Positions 7,548-62,677 of a stretch of DNA of 64,000 bases are shown here, piece after piece. Numbering within the stretch: the first letter of the stretch is position 1; each line of letters begins with the position of its first letter. The position numbers and the translations under genes were made by a program. The notes beneath the pieces are model-generated. The model did not search any database, was not told the DNA's origin, and saw only the letters and a program-made list of their open reading frames with translations. Origin of the DNA: Anaerolineales bacterium (GTDB taxonomy: Bacteria > Chloroflexota > Anaerolineae > Anaerolineales > UBA11579); NCBI GenBank assembly GCA_025808555.1, contig CP075526.1, positions 760,712 to 824,711 of the forward strand. Reading direction: 5' to 3'.

Positions 7548-8231
7548 CTAATCAAAAAAGCGATACCAGAACAGCGCCCACACCGCCTCGAACGCATCCT
7601 TCAGCCCGATCTTCTTGCCCTCTGAATAATCCCGCGGGTTGAAGCTGATCGGCACTTCAAAGATGCGCACGCGACGCTTCAGCAGTTTGGCCGTGATCTC
7701 CGGCTCAAAATTAAAACTGTTCGAGCGGATGGTGATGCCTTGTAGCGCCTCACGCTTGAAGAGCTTGTAACCTGTCTCCATATCCGTGAGGATGTTGTTA
7801 TACAGAATATTGGTCAGCAGCGTCAGTAGCTTATTCGCCACCATGTGCCAGAACATCGTTGGCCGGCGCGGGCCGCCCAGAAAACGCGAGCCATACACCA
7901 CATCCGCCCCGGAATTCTGGATCGGGTCCAGCAGTTTCTCAAAATCACGCGGGTCGTACTCCAGGTCGGCATCCTGGATCAGGATCAGATCCCCCATGGC
8001 CGCCCCAATGCCCGTGCGCACCGCCGCCCCTTTGCCCTGGTTGCGCTCGTGGTGCAGCACCTGCACCCCCGGCTGCGCGGCGAACTTCTCCAGCAGCTGC
8101 GGCGTGCCATCTGTGGAGCCATCGTTCACCAGCACCAGCTCGTCCGCCAGGCCCGAGGAACGCACGCGCTTGATAATTTCTTCCAACGTATTGGCTTCAT
8201 TAAAGATGGGGATGACGACGCTGAGCCTCAT
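7548..8231 (-). CDS. Family 2 glycosyltransferase (dolichol-phosphate mannose synthase-like)
   Basis: 227 residues forming a soluble GT-A fold with no membrane segment. It has the N-terminal VVIPIFNEA, the nucleotide-binding VNDGSTDGT, the metal-binding DADLEYDP and the acceptor-loop region VVYGSRFLGG. These are typical of enzymes that transfer a sugar from a nucleotide donor to a polyprenyl phosphate, feeding protein or cell-wall glycosylation. The exact sugar cannot be told. It converges on recJ with a 3-nt gap. Its ATG lies 10 nt after TATAAT, so it is probably leaderless. Confidence 0.88.
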   Translation of the reverse strand: MRLSVVIPIFNEANTLEEIIKRVRSSGLADELVLVNDGSTDGTPQLLEKFAAQPGVQVLHHERNQGKGAAVRTGIGAAMGDLILIQDADLEYDPRDFEKLLDPIQNSGADVVYGSRFLGGPRRPTMFWHMVANKLLTLLTNILYNNILTDMETGYKLFKREALQGITIRSNSFNFEPEITAKLLKRRVRIFEVPISFNPRDYSEGKKIGLKDAFEAVWALFWYRFFD

Positions 8232-25765: not shown

Positions 25766-28315
25766 CTAAGAGTTGGCCGGCACATGGTTAACCTCGCTTC
25801 TCTCCGCCACCAGCTCGCGCAGCAGCGCCAGCGTCTCGCGCTTGCTGCCCTGGCCCTGTTCACCGCCCGGCCCCACGCACGACGGGCAGCCGTCCTTGCA
25901 CCCGCAGTTCTCGACCAGTTCCAGCGCGGCCGCCATCAGCTCGCCGTGCAAGTCAAACAAACGCTCGCTGAATCCAAGCGCGTTGCCCACGTTGTCGTAC
26001 ATCACCACCACCGGCCCGCCCTCGGCCAGATCTGAGCGCGGGTCGGAATGCACACCCAGGTCGCTCGGGTCGCACATTAAATACAGCGGCGCCAAGTGGC
26101 GCAGCACGAACGAGAGCCCAGCCAGCCCGCTGCGCATCGCCACCACCGCTTCGGCGCGGCGGTGGCAGGTCGGGCACAGGCTCACCAGATTCTCGAGGCG
26201 GTTGCCCTCCTCATGCGAACGGAAGCTGCGCAGCGGCTGCTTGTGGTGCACGTCCAGCGGCTCGGGTGCGCCGCACACCTGGCAGCGATGGCCGTCGCGC
26301 TCCAGCGCCGCCTTGCGCACCGCCATCCAGTCCGGGCCATAGTCGTTGGCATCGTTTGTCCACAGGCCCTGCTCGCGCAGCCGCTCCACCGTATCGTCGC
26401 CGATCGCGAACCAATATCCGTACGTGTTCAGCTCGATCGGCGGCAGGCTGAGCTGCCCGCCGCCGGGGTTTTCCGGGTCGGCCAGGCCGTTACCACTCCA
26501 CTGGATCTTGTCGTAGCCGGTGATCTCAACGGTGATGTTGAGCTCGCCATAATGCTGGCTGCCGCCGGGCGCCGGCTGCTGCTTGTGCTCTTCTACCAGC
26601 GAAACGGTGCTGCGGCTCTTGGGCACGGTGTAATAGTCGGCCTCGATGGGGCGCAGGTAGGCCACCTTCTCGTCGAGATCCAGCTTGTCCACAAAGTACG
26701 TGCGCCCGTCGTGAATATAGATGGCGTCGGGATGCGCAAGCCACAGCGCGCCGTTGGGGTCCACCTCGCCCACCAGCTGCCAGGCGCCCTTGTCGTCGCG
26801 CGCCTGGATGACCACCGAGTCGGTGCTGGCGCCGCGCAGGTTGACGCCGCGCGCCGGCTGCTGCTCCTGCATCCAATAGTATTTGCCGCCCGAGGCGCGC
26901 AGCTCGCCGCCCTCCGCCAGCAGACGCAAAAACTCCTCCACCTCGGCGGCCGGCACCGTGCCGAAGTTCTCACCCGGCTGGAACGGCAGCTCGAAGGCCG
27001 CGCAGCGCAGGTGCGAAAGCAGGATGAGCAAATTGTCCGGGTTGATCAAGGCGCGCTCCGGCGAGCGGCCCAGCAAATATTCCGGGTGGCGCGCCAGGTA
27101 CTGGTCGAGCGGATTCGCCGAGGCGACCAGCACGCCGAGGGCAGGCTGCTCGCCGCGGCCGGAGCGCCCGGCCTGTTGCCAGGTGGCCGCCACGCTGCCG
27201 GGGTAACCGGCCAGCACCGCCGCGCCCATGCCGCCAATGTCTACGCCCAGCTCGAGCGCGTTGGTGGCCACCACTGCGCGCAACTGGCCGCTGCGCAGGC
27301 CGGTCTCGATCTCGCGGCGCTCGGCGGCCAGATAGCCGCCGCGGTAGCCGCGGATCTGTGCCTCGTTGGCCGCGGTGCGGTCGCGCAGATTTTTCAACAT
27401 CACTTCCACCATGCGCCGCGTGCGGCCAAACAGGATGGTCTGCACGTCATAGGCCAGCAGGTCAGACGCCAGGCGCACGCTCTCCTGATACAGGCTGGCG
27501 CGCAGGCCCAGCTGCTCGTCCACCACCGGCGGGTTGTAGACCACAAAATGGCGCGGGCCGCGCGGCGCGCCGTCCTCTTCGATCAGCGTGACCTGGCGCT
27601 CGATCAGGCGCTCGGCCAGCTCGCCCGGGTTGGCGATGGTGGCCGAGGCCAGCACGAACTGCGGTTGCGCGCCGTAAAAACGCGTGACGCGTGCCAGCCG
27701 CCGCAGCACATTGGCCACATGCGAGCCGAACACGCCGCGGTAGTAGTGCATCTCGTCAATGACGATGTGCTTGAGGTTGCCGAAGAACTCCGCCCACTGG
27801 GTGTGCGAGGGCAGGATGCTGTAATGCAGCATGTCGGGATTGCTGATGATGAGGTGCGCTTTGCGGCGGATGTTGGTGCGGTGGTGCGTGGGCGTGTCGC
27901 CGTCGTAGGCGGCCACCGGCAACTTTGCGCTGGCGGCCGCCAGCCATGCATCCAGCTCGTCGCGCTGGTCATGCGCCAGCGCCTTGGTCGGGAACAAGTA
28001 CAGCGCCCGGGCGGCCTCGTCGCGCAGCAGGCTGTCGAGCACCGGCAGGTTGTAGCACAGGGTCTTGCCGCTGGCCGTGCCGGTCACCACCGCCACGTCG
28101 GTGCCCGCCCGCAGGCCGCGCCAGGCAGCGGCCTGGTGGCTGTACAGCTGCCCGTACCCCAGCCGCGCAAAGGCGGCCGCCAGCGCCGGATGCAGTTCGC
28201 TGGGCAGCGGCTCGTACTGGCCCGGGCGGGCCGGCTGCTGGTGCCAGCGGGTGATGTTGCCGCCCACGCCAGGCTCGGCGCGCCAATGGGCCAACAGGGC
28301 TTCCAAATTCGCCAT
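25766..28315 (-). CDS. mrfA: MrfA/YprA-like superfamily 2 helicase with inserted HNH domain
   Basis: 849 residues. Helicase motifs are seen in order: Walker A GTASGKT near residue 80, DEMH (VIDEMHYYRG), ASATIANP, and motif VI QQAGRSGRGEQ near 385. The C-terminal MZB/DUF1998 zinc motif CGCKDGCPSC is near residues 804-813. MrfA is a 3'-5' DNA helicase that works with MrfB on mitomycin-type damage. Unusually, residues 663-722 form a complete HNH fold (CQVCG, DVHHKQPL, NLVSLCPTCHRR), so this protein may also cut DNA. Length exceeds Bacillus MrfA (about 750) by roughly the insertion. Confidence 0.87.
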   Translation of the reverse strand: MANLEALLAHWRAEPGVGGNITRWHQQPARPGQYEPLPSELHPALAAAFARLGYGQLYSHQAAAWRGLRAGTDVAVVTGTASGKTLCYNLPVLDSLLRDEAARALYLFPTKALAHDQRDELDAWLAAASAKLPVAAYDGDTPTHHRTNIRRKAHLIISNPDMLHYSILPSHTQWAEFFGNLKHIVIDEMHYYRGVFGSHVANVLRRLARVTRFYGAQPQFVLASATIANPGELAERLIERQVTLIEEDGAPRGPRHFVVYNPPVVDEQLGLRASLYQESVRLASDLLAYDVQTILFGRTRRMVEVMLKNLRDRTAANEAQIRGYRGGYLAAERREIETGLRSGQLRAVVATNALELGVDIGGMGAAVLAGYPGSVAATWQQAGRSGRGEQPALGVLVASANPLDQYLARHPEYLLGRSPERALINPDNLLILLSHLRCAAFELPFQPGENFGTVPAAEVEEFLRLLAEGGELRASGGKYYWMQEQQPARGVNLRGASTDSVVIQARDDKGAWQLVGEVDPNGALWLAHPDAIYIHDGRTYFVDKLDLDEKVAYLRPIEADYYTVPKSRSTVSLVEEHKQQPAPGGSQHYGELNITVEITGYDKIQWSGNGLADPENPGGGQLSLPPIELNTYGYWFAIGDDTVERLREQGLWTNDANDYGPDWMAVRKAALERDGHRCQVCGAPEPLDVHHKQPLRSFRSHEEGNRLENLVSLCPTCHRRAEAVVAMRSGLAGLSFVLRHLAPLYLMCDPSDLGVHSDPRSDLAEGGPVVVMYDNVGNALGFSERLFDLHGELMAAALELVENCGCKDGCPSCVGPGGEQGQGSKRETLALLRELVAERSEVNHVPANS

Positions 28316-43735: not shown

Positions 43736-44814
43736 AAGCACGCATCGCGTATCTGTTGCAGATGTTTGGCGTGGGGGGCATGCCAAAGTGGCTGTACCGC
43801 CTGGCGGGCGAACTGGGCGATGAGTTTGACTTTCACTTTATTGCTACGCATTCAGACTATGTTCTGCCTGACTACAGCCAGGTGGCGAAGGTGAGCGTGC
43901 TGCCCTTTCGCAAGCTGCCGCTGGCCTGGCACCTGCTGTGTGAGCGCATTGACCTGGTGCAGATCGCCAACTTACGTCTATACGCAGATGCGGCCCGCCT
44001 GGCCGGCGTGCCAAGCGTGATCGAACGAGTGGATGGCATGCGCGGCGGGGCGGCCCTGGGACGCAAGGAAGGCCTGGATGCAGTAGTGGCTTCGACGCGC
44101 GGCATGGCCAGCTATCTTGAGCGCATGCTGCCCGCTGACAAGATCCATACGATCTACAACGGAGTGGACCTGGCCGCATTCAATGCTGCGCCGGTTGAAC
44201 GGTTTGGCCTGGGCACTGACAAGATAATCATTGGGCGAACGTCACGGCTGGGTGGTGGCAAGAATATTTCGCTGCTGATCGCGGCGGTGAAGCAACTGCG
44301 CCAACAAGCCAGGTACGCACATGTGCATCTGGTGGTGTGCGGCGGCGACACCACCCAACCGGGCGCAGTGCCGATGCTGGCGCAGCTGCGGGCGGAGGCC
44401 GAGCCGCTGGGCGATGCGGTCATCTTTACCGGGGAAGTTGCCGACCCGACAGCAATCACCAAGGGCTTTGACATCGCCACCTGTACTTCGCTGCCCAGCA
44501 ATGAGGGCATCCCCAATTCGTTGATCGAGGCGATGGCTGCGGGCAAACCCGTAGTGGCGAGCGCAGTGGACGATATTCCGGAGTTGGTGCAGGACGACGT
44601 GACCGGGTTGCTGTTTGAGAGCGGCAACCTGGAGCAGTTGACGGCGGCGTTGGCCAGATTGGTGGATGATGCTGGCTTGCGGGCAAAGATGGGTGCAGCG
44701 GGCCGCGAATATGTTGAGCAGGCGTTTGACTTGAAACGTCAGGCTGAGCAATACCGCCAGCTGTACCGAAGCCTACTGGAGCGCAACGGCCGCCACTGGC
44801 TCAATCGTTCTTAG
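43732..44814 (+). CDS. Family 4 glycosyltransferase
   Basis: 360 residues from the ATG overlapping the previous stop. GT-B fold: the N-terminal LLQMFGVGGMPKWLYRLA loop contacts the acceptor. The C-terminal donor domain has IIIGRTSRLGGGKN near residue 165, and the E-x7-E region PNSLIEAMAAGKPVVAS, followed by DDIPELVQDDVTGLLF. It would add a sugar to a glycan made or modified by the three methyltransferases upstream. Its stop overlaps the convergent AlkZ-like gene by 4 bp. Confidence 0.88.
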   Translation: MKARIAYLLQMFGVGGMPKWLYRLAGELGDEFDFHFIATHSDYVLPDYSQVAKVSVLPFRKLPLAWHLLCERIDLVQIANLRLYADAARLAGVPSVIERVDGMRGGAALGRKEGLDAVVASTRGMASYLERMLPADKIHTIYNGVDLAAFNAAPVERFGLGTDKIIIGRTSRLGGGKNISLLIAAVKQLRQQARYAHVHLVVCGGDTTQPGAVPMLAQLRAEAEPLGDAVIFTGEVADPTAITKGFDIATCTSLPSNEGIPNSLIEAMAAGKPVVASAVDDIPELVQDDVTGLLFESGNLEQLTAALARLVDDAGLRAKMGAAGREYVEQAFDLKRQAEQYRQLYRSLLERNGRHWLNRS

Positions 44815-45938
44815 TCCAGCATTCCCACGACTGGCTTCAGCCCCAAAAACTCCCCGTAGCGCTTGATGCTGGCTTTGAGGGAGCGGGCATCGGCAGCGGC
44901 ATTGCCGCCGAAGGGAGATTGCAGGGTGATGTGCACTTCGTCCTTTTGCAGCTCGCGCTTCCACATGCCGGCGGTGCGCCCGTTGATGACGTAGAAGTGC
45001 GGCAGCATGAGCGCGCCGCCGGCCCACAAGGACTTGTAGTCGTTCGGCTCGGTGTGGCTTCGGTCGGCGAAGCCGATGCCGTATTCGTCAAAGTTGGGCA
45101 GCAGCCAGGCGCCGCGGGCGCTATTGGCGGGCGGCCGCGCCTCGGACCACCAGTAGGCTTTGCCATCCAGCTCAGCGCTGCGCAGTTCGCCCAGCGACAG
45201 GGCTGCAGCGCGGCAATCGGCCACGGTGAGGCCTGACCACCAGGCGAAGTCGTGCGCGGTGGCCGGACCGCGGGCGCCAAAGTAGCGGCGGGCCAGCTCG
45301 GCCAGAGCGTCTTGGCGGGCGAGCGAGCGGCCGCGGGCAGGGGCGCGTTCATCCAGCAACATGTAGGTGAACTGCTTGCCGCGGCGCGGGCCGCTGGTGA
45401 GCAGGCCTTCCAGCTCGGCGAACATGACGAAGTAGGCCAGACGCTGGCCTTGTGCCTCAGGCACACCACCGGCTTGCAAAGCGCTGGCAAGCTCACTGCG
45501 GGTGAGCTGCTGGCCGCCCTCCAGGGCACGTTGGAAGATCTTCAGCGCACGCTTTTGGGCAGGGCCATCCACGCCCAGTTTGCGATACATGTGGCCATTG
45601 AGAGCGTGCACACGCGGCGCGCTGAGCATCAGCATCCAGCGCACATCGGCGGGGGCGACGAAGTGCCAGGTGGGGCGCAAGATGTGCAGGCGCAGGATGC
45701 GGCCATCGGAGAACCAGGCTTCAACCTCGCTTTCGGTCCACCCTGCCTGGAGATTGCTGCGCTTGCTCACTGAGACAGATTGAGGCTGCAGGCGTATCGC
45801 CAGGCCCCACAGCGCTCCGTAAAAATCCTGGGATTGGACGGCACCCTGGGTTGAGACGACCTCAAGCGGGTTGCGCAGTGCGCTGGCAACCAGATGCTGG
45901 TTGGCCAGGCGACGGCGAATGATCTCACTTGTCTTCAT
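44811..45938 (-). CDS. Winged-helix DNA-binding protein of the AlkZ (HTH_42) family
   Basis: 375 residues composed of tandem winged helices, the fold of the YcaQ/AlkZ DNA glycosylases. The conserved N-terminal region reads GAVQSQDFYGALWGLAIR near residue 32, giving a QSQ triplet at the position of the AlkZ catalytic QxQ motif (YcaQ has QxD). HFVAPADVRWML and the late TAGMWKRE region also match the family. AlkZ enzymes excise bulky or cross-linked alkylated bases made by natural products. Activity here is inference from the motif. Confidence 0.75.
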   Translation of the reverse strand: MKTSEIIRRRLANQHLVASALRNPLEVVSTQGAVQSQDFYGALWGLAIRLQPQSVSVSKRSNLQAGWTESEVEAWFSDGRILRLHILRPTWHFVAPADVRWMLMLSAPRVHALNGHMYRKLGVDGPAQKRALKIFQRALEGGQQLTRSELASALQAGGVPEAQGQRLAYFVMFAELEGLLTSGPRRGKQFTYMLLDERAPARGRSLARQDALAELARRYFGARGPATAHDFAWWSGLTVADCRAAALSLGELRSAELDGKAYWWSEARPPANSARGAWLLPNFDEYGIGFADRSHTEPNDYKSLWAGGALMLPHFYVINGRTAGMWKRELQKDEVHITLQSPFGGNAAADARSLKASIKRYGEFLGLKPVVGMLD

Positions 45939-45953
45939 GCAGGGAAGTTATTC

Positions 45954-46044
<91 letters not shown>

Positions 46045-53703: not shown

Positions 53704-53734
53704 AAGAAAAACGCACGCGGCTGCGCGTGCGTTT
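53704..53734 (-). terminator. Terminator of the tRNA-Pro / small ORF transcript
   Basis: 11-bp stem AAACGCACGCG / CGCGTGCGTTT with a 4-nt loop. On the minus strand it is followed by TTCTTATC. It lies 19 nt after the stop of the small ORF. Confidence 0.75.
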
Positions 53735-53752: not shown

Positions 53753-54094
53753 CTACACCAGCGGCGCACCCTCCAGCCAGTCTTGCGGCAGGTCGCCGCG
53801 GCCCTCGCCCAATACCAGGAAGGTGCCCTGGTGGGTCTTCTTGAGGCGCAGGCGTTGGCCCAGCTCAAATTCGGAGGCCCACTGCTCACGGCGGTCGCCG
53901 ATGTAGAAGCGCTTGCCGGCCTGCAGGCGCTGGATCAGCGCGTCCCGGTCGAGCAGGACGGTGTCGGACCAGGTTGGCCCGCGGCGTTCGTAGGCGCGCA
54001 CCCAGTCCAGCTGGCCGTTGGGGTCCAAGTGCACAGCTTCCACCACGCCGTGGGCCTTGCGGTTGTTGCGAACGAAGTTCTTTGTTTTGAACAT
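53753..54094 (-). CDS. Small conserved-looking protein directly downstream of tRNA-Pro, function unknown
   Basis: 113 residues from the ATG at 54094; an in-frame reading to 54127 lies inside the tRNA. The N-terminus is basic (MFKTKNFVRNNRKAHG), and the rest is beta-rich with GKRFYIGDRREQWASEFELGQRLRLKK and an acidic, Gly-rich end (VLGEGRGDLPQDW). I do not recognise the family. The ATG is only 2 nt after the tRNA discriminator base and there is no ribosome-binding site, so its mRNA 5' end may be made by tRNA 3' processing. A terminator follows. Confidence 0.65.
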   Translation of the reverse strand: MFKTKNFVRNNRKAHGVVEAVHLDPNGQLDWVRAYERRGPTWSDTVLLDRDALIQRLQAGKRFYIGDRREQWASEFELGQRLRLKKTHQGTFLVLGEGRGDLPQDWLEGAPLV

Positions 54095-54096
54095 AG

Positions 54097-54170
54097 TCGG
54101 GGTGGGCGGATTCGAACCGCCGACCACCGCGTCCCAAACGCGGTGCGCTGCCAGGCTGCGCTACACCCCG
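54097..54170 (-). tRNA. tRNA-Pro, anticodon TGG
   Basis: Minus-strand cloverleaf: acceptor CGGGGTG / CACCCCG, anticodon loop TTTGGGA within a CGCG / CGCG stem, T-arm GGTTCGAATCC, discriminator A at 54097. No CCA is encoded, unlike tRNA-Ser in this window. TATACT (54186-54181 on the minus strand) lies 10 nt before the 5' end. The next gene starts 2 nt after the tRNA. Confidence 0.96.
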
Positions 54171-54320
54171 CAGCAGGCCCAGTATACCAATGAGCAAAGC
54201 CCGGGGCAGGTTCAACTCTACAAGGAGTAAGCCGATTAACAAAGCGCTGATACAGCGATGATCGATTTCTTACACACGCCGGCTAGCATCCCAGTCAAAC
54301 CTTATTGATAGGAGATGACC

Positions 54321-54707
54321 ATGATGACCCTTTACCTCAACCCCCGCACCCGCCGCTTCAGCCAGGTGCGCAACACCAGCGTGCACATCCCCGTGGATGT
54401 CAGCGCCAATGGCGAGGAGTACATCCTGCGGGCCTACCTGCCCGGCCTGAAGGCCGAGGATGTCCAGATCGAAGTGCTGGAGAACACCATCACCATCCAG
54501 GGCGAGTTCGCCAACCAGGTGCTGGGCGAGAACGAGCAGGTCCTGCTGAGCGAGCTGCCCAGCGGCAGCTTTGAGCGCACCCTGCGCTTGCCGAGCGACC
54601 TGGACGCCGAGCGCGCCCAGGCCGAGATGCAGGATGGTGTGCTGACCCTGCACGTGGCCAAGGCTGAGCACGCCAAGAGCAAGAAGATTGCGGTGCTAGC
54701 CAAATAA
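54321..54707 (+). CDS. Hsp20 small heat-shock protein
   Basis: 128 residues from the second ATG (GGAG ends 6 nt before it; the ATG at 54315 has no spacing). The alpha-crystallin domain spans about 25-125, with VSANGEEYILRAYLPGLKAED at its start, and the conserved LPSDLDAERAQAEMQDGVLTLHVAK at its end (A-x-x-x-n-GVL motif). It prevents aggregation of unfolded proteins without ATP. The usual C-terminal I-x-I anchor is reduced to IAVLAK. Monocistronic with a strong terminator. Confidence 0.93.
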   Translation: MMTLYLNPRTRRFSQVRNTSVHIPVDVSANGEEYILRAYLPGLKAEDVQIEVLENTITIQGEFANQVLGENEQVLLSELPSGSFERTLRLPSDLDAERAQAEMQDGVLTLHVAKAEHAKSKKIAVLAK

Positions 54708-61663: not shown

Positions 61664-62677
61664 ATGAGTGAAACCACGCCCAGCTGTATCCTGTTGGGGC
61701 GCTTACAGCGCGACACGATCATCAACGCTGCCGGCCAGGCGCTGGTGGATCAGCCGGGCGGCAACCTGCTCTACGCCGCGGCGGCCTACCAGATCTGGGG
61801 CGACACGCCCGGTCTGGTGAGCCGGGTCGGCAGCGACTTTCCCGCAGACTGGGAGCTGCACACCGGCGGCCACGCGCTGGATACGCGCGGCATCATGCGC
61901 TTGGCCGAGCCGCAAGACCTGCGGCGCTTCGTAGCCTACAGCGACGTGGCCACCGCCCACCGCGAGAACCCCATCAAATATTTTGCGCGCCACAACCTGC
62001 CCTTGCCCAAGAGCCTGCTGGGCTACCAGGCCCCGGTGGAGCGCCTGGACCCCAAGCGAGAGCGCAATGCGCTCTCGCTGCGGCCAGACGATGTGCCGGC
62101 CGCCTACCGCGGCGCAGGGACTGCGCACCTGTGCCCACTGGACTATCACACCCACAAGCTGCTGCCGGCGGCCCTGCGTGAGCAAGGCACGCCCATCGTC
62201 ACGCTGGATGCGGGGCGCGGCTATATGCACCCGGACTTTCTGGCCGAGCTGCCCGAGTTGGTCAACGGGCTGACGGTGTTCCTGACCACAGAAGAGCGCC
62301 TGGTGACTCTCTTTGCCAACCGCAGCCAGGGCCTGTGGAAAATGATCGAAACAGTGGGGAGCTTCAACTGCAAGGCGGTGGTGGTGCATAGTGTGCACCG
62401 CGGCCAGTGGCTTCTGGATGTGGAGGCGCGCAAGCGCTACCAGATACCACCTTATCCGGCGCGCCTGGCGGATATCAGCAATGCGGGCAGCAGCTTCTGC
62501 GGCGGCTTCATTGCCGGGCTGCAACGCACGCAGGACTTTCTGCGAGCCACGCTATACGGCAATTCGCTGCAGTCATTGGCAATGGAAGGCAGCGGCGCCT
62601 TCTATGTAGGCGAAACCTTGCCCGGCCTGGCCGAATCACGGCTTAATTCGCTGGCCATGGCTGTGCAAGCCGTTTAG
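61664..62677 (+). CDS. PfkB-like carbohydrate kinase family protein with altered catalytic motif
   Basis: 337 residues. The ribokinase/PfkB frame is clear: N-terminal GGNLLYAAAAYQIWG in place of GGxxxNxA, SRVGSDFPADWELH, and a late segment ISNAGSSFCGGFIAGL that replaces the family signature D-T-x-G-A-G-D-x-F. The catalytic-base Asp is thus Ser, and the anion-hole Gly-Ala-Gly is Asn-Ala-Gly. It may be an inactive, sugar- or nucleoside-binding member, or a divergent kinase. It stands alone behind a repeat-rich promoter and before a strong terminator. Confidence 0.75.
   Translation: MSETTPSCILLGRLQRDTIINAAGQALVDQPGGNLLYAAAAYQIWGDTPGLVSRVGSDFPADWELHTGGHALDTRGIMRLAEPQDLRRFVAYSDVATAHRENPIKYFARHNLPLPKSLLGYQAPVERLDPKRERNALSLRPDDVPAAYRGAGTAHLCPLDYHTHKLLPAALREQGTPIVTLDAGRGYMHPDFLAELPELVNGLTVFLTTEERLVTLFANRSQGLWKMIETVGSFNCKAVVVHSVHRGQWLLDVEARKRYQIPPYPARLADISNAGSSFCGGFIAGLQRTQDFLRATLYGNSLQSLAMEGSGAFYVGETLPGLAESRLNSLAMAVQAV

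Follow-up and report, generated by a model that had tools for sequence, protein, structure and literature searches.

In bacteria, tRNA genes can be transcribed together with protein-coding genes, as in thrU-tyrU-glyT-thrT-tufB and metY-rimP-nusA of Escherichia coli. By the textbook route, tRNAs whose genes do not encode CCA are cut by RNase Z directly after the discriminator base, a reaction that leaves a 5' phosphate. In animal mitochondria, as far as the article citing the original work describes it, tRNA excision makes the 5' ends of near-leaderless mRNAs, on which translation starts at the 5' end (tRNA punctuation; Ojala et al. 1981, cited in PMC5203842). Leaderless initiation favors an AUG placed at the 5' end or close to it and requires a 5' phosphate; an added leader weakens it, and CA repeats downstream of the start codon strengthen it (PMC9031893). 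Of 12 Chloroflexi genomes, 4 had any predicted leaderless genes, with a modest mean share of 4.7% in these four (PMC3160421). Co-transcription of tRNA and protein genes, mitochondrial punctuation and leaderless mRNAs are each known, and our search of the open-access literature returned no bacterial case of a tRNA boundary setting the 5' end of an mRNA; as far as this literature shows, the combination of the three in a bacterium is new.

The locus described here lies on the minus strand of a 64-kb window (64,000 nucleotides, the whole stretch of Anaerolineales DNA that was analyzed). A tRNA-Pro(UGG) gene, the sole gene for the UGG isoacceptor found in the genome, occupies positions 54097..54170 (-) based on ARAGORN and acceptor-stem pairing; the ARAGORN call for tRNA-Pro(TGG), 54096-54170 (-), takes in one trailer base, since the seven-pair acceptor stem sets the discriminator, an A, at 54097. 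As the initial annotation had claimed, CCA is not encoded, and acceptor pairing places the start codon of an open reading frame (ORF) 2 nt 3' of the discriminator: A at 54097, the spacer CT (54095..54096 (-)), which is the predicted entire 5' leader of the mRNA, and ATG at 54094-54092. The ORF has 113 codons, ends with TAG at 53755-53753 (53753..54094 (-) in all), and encodes a conserved small protein specific to Anaerolineales. The order on the minus strand is ...GGTATACT-GGGCCTGCTG-[CGGGGTG...CACCCCG-A]-CT-ATGTTCAAAACAAAG..., and a divergent hsp20 gene (54315-54707 (+)) lies upstream, which makes the tRNA the first gene of its unit. Ten nucleotides 5' of the tRNA, TATACT (54186-54181) preceded by TGG forms an extended -10 element (54181..54189 (-)) of a candidate promoter for tRNA and ORF, the -10 being kept across the genus; relatives add a TTGAC -35, the promoter in the window has no clear -35, and a strict sigma-70 scan gave no promoter there. 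A strong intrinsic terminator with an 11-bp stem and a T-rich tail (53709..53734 (-)) would close the unit, and the nearest relatives have hairpins resembling it. The promoter and terminator that had been proposed to frame the pair were both located, the latter, at 53734-53709, a few bases off the earlier coordinates.

The two genes are, by computation, adjacent on one strand, and the 2-nt gap between them holds neither a terminator nor a promoter (-10 hexamer) nor a Shine-Dalgarno sequence. From this arrangement we infer a single transcription unit, extending from the extended -10 to the terminator, whose precursor RNase Z would cut after the discriminator, freeing the tRNA for CCA addition and leaving an mRNA that begins 5'-P-CU-AUG and would be translated by a leaderless-type (70S, 5'-end) route. 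Deletion of a formerly wider gap in the window's family would have made the ORF dependent on the transcription and maturation of the tRNA. We assign this whole model, from co-transcript to lost ancestral gap, a probability of roughly 0.7.

Proximity by itself carries little weight, since 3.4% of window positions have, within 0-8 nt, an ATG that opens a frame of 100 codons or more, so that a single such pair is no surprise in a genome with 48 tRNA genes. Conservation does go beyond chance: 15 of 19 loci in the window's family have a 2-8 nt gap before an orthologue under strong purifying selection. The initial annotation had named an unconserved ORF as grounds for dismissing its interpretation, and the ORF is in fact a real gene under purifying selection, with dN/dS of 0.035-0.10 within the genus. 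Orthologues occur in 19 of 24 family genomes, including all 12 with a completeness of 90% or more, as well as in sister families within the order Anaerolineales; a profile search of 400 genomes of the phylum found none outside this order. The annotated start is also supported, since differences in codons 2-12 are nearly all synonymous among the window's closest relatives, which places the translation start at or before ATG 54094. The family shares the core motif VRAYERRGPTWSDxVLLDR. The window protein had no match in Pfam or NCBIfam; DUF3892 (PF13031) weakly matched 6 of 25 family members (best E 0.0011) and not the window protein, and running its model on the genome found nothing. There was no sequence relative in the PDB (best E 0.59), and a confident AlphaFold model (pLDDT 83, pTM 0.77) had no Foldseek match below E 0.1 and reached a VIA Z of 4.0 at best. 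With no family, PDB or fold match, we claim no function for the protein.

The initial annotation had proposed checking whether tRNA and ORF stay adjacent in related genomes, and they do: of 51 loci (a set in which some genomes are represented twice), 49 have tRNA-Pro(UGG) upstream of the gene in the same orientation, and these are all the loci where ARAGORN calls a neighboring tRNA. The two others, from sister families (L005 and L008), have no tRNA within 1.5 kb, and there the gene carries a TAAAAT and a GGAGG of its own. In the 23 sister-family loci with the tRNA, the gap is always 68-439 nt, with a TAAAAT or TACAAT hexamer just 5' of the gene in 20 of them and a Shine-Dalgarno sequence, typically GGAGG, in 21. 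The 15 short-gap loci of the window's family have no Shine-Dalgarno sequence at normal spacing and no -10 in the gap; their gap is exactly 2 nt (CT or CC) in ten cases, 3 nt in three (L037, L042 and L046, the last by eye, the 5 nt returned by the script being due to a mispaired acceptor stem), 6 nt in one and 8 nt in one. The remaining four loci have wider gaps: 24 nt (L048) and 53 nt (L050), both without a promoter, and 187 nt (L051) and 305 nt (L047), each with a promoter-like TAAAAT. L047 and L051 retain a wide gap with its own -10, and hence the coupling is not universal in the family. The initial interpretation gains comparative support from this pattern: relatives with a wide gap have a promoter and a Shine-Dalgarno sequence, whereas those with 2-8 nt have neither.

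The variable spacing also bears on the possibility that translation begins at an in-frame GTG (54127) inside the tRNA, giving a 124-aa protein. The frame is open through the 3' half of the tRNA, but the GTG lies within the tRNA structure and, with gaps of 2, 3, 6 and 8 nt among orthologues, the ORF and the tRNA do not keep a constant phase. We consider a start inside the tRNA highly improbable and rejected it because the frame shifts in this way.

A transcript might also start at the ATG itself, from a promoter within the tRNA gene, so that a truly leaderless mRNA would be made independently of tRNA processing. This genome does seem to use genes with a -10 just 5' of the start: among 47 long window ORFs, 10 have such a hexamer 5-10 nt 5' of the start codon, vs. 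about 2.5 in control bins, a count that rests on crude start choices. At this locus, however, the position for a -10 is occupied by CCGCCCACCCCGACT, a sequence without TANNNT; the sequences of the T-arm and acceptor are, in addition, constrained by tRNA function and are of the same type in relatives with a separate downstream promoter. Since the tRNA contains no -10 hexamer at a leaderless distance from the ATG, we rejected the internal promoter, which the initial annotation had named as grounds for refuting its interpretation and whose probability we regard as very low. Leaderless genes as such seem, from the sequence, to exist in this genome, and ORFs with TATAAT or TACAAT 6-10 nt before the start, e.g., 7548-8231 (-), 25766-28315 (-) and 61664-62677 (+), are candidate promoter-made leaderless genes.

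The machinery for the proposed processing appears to be present. Encoded CCA is absent from 44 of the 48 tRNA genes of the genome. Among its genes are an RNase Z homologue, matched over the whole length of the model (E 3e-84; 282 bits, slightly short of the NCBIfam cut-off of 293 bits), and a homologue of the CCA-adding enzyme; that is, homologues of both activities that tRNA punctuation requires, a 3' processing nuclease and CCA addition, are found. The co-transcript could nonetheless be real and translation independent of RNase Z, either because an RNase E/J type cut followed by trimming forms the ends or because initiation takes place on the uncut precursor. Routes of tRNA 3' processing do differ among bacteria, and Propionibacterium acnes has no RNase Z, and its tRNA 3' ends can be formed by other nucleases, with cuts at or within CCA (PMC3848588). 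Against a different nuclease stand the RNase Z homologue and the scarcity of encoded CCA; moreover, at a 2-nt gap, a downstream cut with 3' trimming would be expected to destroy the start codon. On an uncut precursor, only 2 nt would separate the AUG from the closed acceptor stem, and the 30S subunit would find no single-stranded leader. We therefore view translation independent of RNase Z as unlikely, although less so than an internal promoter, and prefer the RNase Z cut after the discriminator. Two loci (L040 and L049) read A-CC-ATG, so that the start codon would supply the final A of an encoded CCA; this start codon would survive cleavage directly after the discriminator and be destroyed by a tRNA end at CCA.

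For the last step of the preferred model, leaderless-type translation, the beginnings of the coding sequences offer a further indication. The window ORF starts with AUG, which the predicted cut would place beside the mRNA 5' end. The first ten codons (2-11) have a mean A+C content of 0.68 in short-gap members, compared with 0.53 in relatives whose gap is wide and 0.48 for those window genes that have a Shine-Dalgarno sequence. The A/C-rich start is pronounced in L041, L049 and their relatives but missing from L040, L044 and L046 (0.50), and it is supportive only, since the short-gap members share ancestry.

In the protein tree, short gaps fall in three separate groups of the window's family: the window's genus plus two neighbors, with a short gap in 12/12; the genera g224/g226, with gaps of 2 and 3 nt beside the 305-nt member; and g229, with gaps of 2, 24 and 53 nt, weakly grouped with the 187-nt member. 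Tentatively, the fusion arose more than once, or arose once and then reopened, with the number of origins uncertain because many forks of the tree have low support. An independent promoter and a Shine-Dalgarno sequence were probably present in a wider gap of the ancestor and later lost in the window's family.

Several other arrangements next to tRNA genes were observed. A tRNA-Gly(TCC) gene lies 4-28 nt 5' of a rhodanese-domain gene in 6 of 10 loci (L133-L142, from the window's own genus and its neighbors), with wider gaps of 54, 89 and 583 nt in three others, and, in the window (44811-46044 (-)), a tRNA-Ser(CGA) gene with encoded CCA lies 18 nt before a gene for an AlkZ-like DNA glycosylase that has no Shine-Dalgarno sequence. 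Both pairs retain a short trailer as leader and are therefore looser examples. A 79-aa ORF 6 nt after tRNA-Arg(TCT) (L056) has an arbitrary-looking translation and was treated as chance. At two loci (L004 and L021), a GIY-YIG nuclease-like ORF (Pfam E 1.9e-17 for that of L004) lies between tRNA-Pro and the orthologue and starts directly at the tRNA 3' end; in L021 it is followed by a duplicated tRNA 3' end, and the arrangement suggests a small element with tRNA-Pro 3' ends as its insertion site. In four loci (L018, L017, L003 and L020), the stretch from tRNA-Pro to the gene holds repeats resembling the tRNA 3' end, up to four in tandem, that contain an inserted hairpin (GGTTTCCCCATTGAGGGGATG...CGAATCCTATCGCCCCGAC). 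Further, a hairpin followed by the motif TAGGAGTTTCTAC recurs just 3' of several tRNA genes of this genome, namely tRNA-Glu(CTC) (L095), tRNA-Arg(CCT) (L096) and tRNA-Leu(GAG) (L103).

As to what the coupling means, we lean slightly toward the view that tRNA maturation creates the translatable mRNA as a bacterial counterpart of mitochondrial tRNA punctuation, reached through the loss of promoter and ribosome-binding site and tying protein output to the processing of tRNA-Pro(UGG). The odds are about even that the fusion reflects mere genome compaction, with the ORF expressed from the tRNA transcript and the coupling devoid of regulatory meaning. The genome is small (2.24 Mb), and the relatives' independent promoter indicates that the coupling is unnecessary for the function of the gene; however, the close fit recurs in separate branches of the tree, and the genus has the similar tRNA-Gly/rhodanese arrangement. 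Compaction concerns meaning and is compatible with the tRNA-processing mechanism that we favor. Under this mechanism, the locus represents a natural test of the translation of 5'-monophosphate, near-leaderless mRNA in Chloroflexota. Further, intermediates survive, from a wide gap with promoter and Shine-Dalgarno sequence through 24-53 nt without a promoter to 2 nt, and hence one can ask how promoter control turns into processing control and how leaderless mRNAs arise.

Compared with the known systems, the locus resembles the E. coli co-transcripts in having the tRNA first, the protein gene second and one promoter; the latter retain a leader with a Shine-Dalgarno sequence, whereas here the AUG is 2 nt from the tRNA. 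It also resembles promoter-made leaderless mRNAs, e.g., those of Deinococcus-Thermus and Actinobacteria (PMC3160421, PMC9031893), in its AUG at or beside the predicted 5' end, without a Shine-Dalgarno sequence, and in the A/C-rich start of most short-gap members, but its 5' end would arise by RNA processing rather than by transcription initiation. An endonuclease cut also yields leaderless mRNAs in the case of E. coli MazF, as far as the articles citing that work describe it (PMC3848588, PMC5397173); MazF leaves a 5' hydroxyl and acts under stress, whereas RNase Z leaves a 5' phosphate and belongs to housekeeping processing. The likeness to mitochondrial punctuation would lie in tRNA excision making the 5' end of a near-leaderless mRNA that is translated from that end, and the start codon is, as there, within a few nucleotides of the predicted processing site (2 nt here). 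The present case differs in being located on a bacterial chromosome, in involving a single tRNA and a single gene with a dedicated promoter and terminator, and in that its cut is a predicted one.
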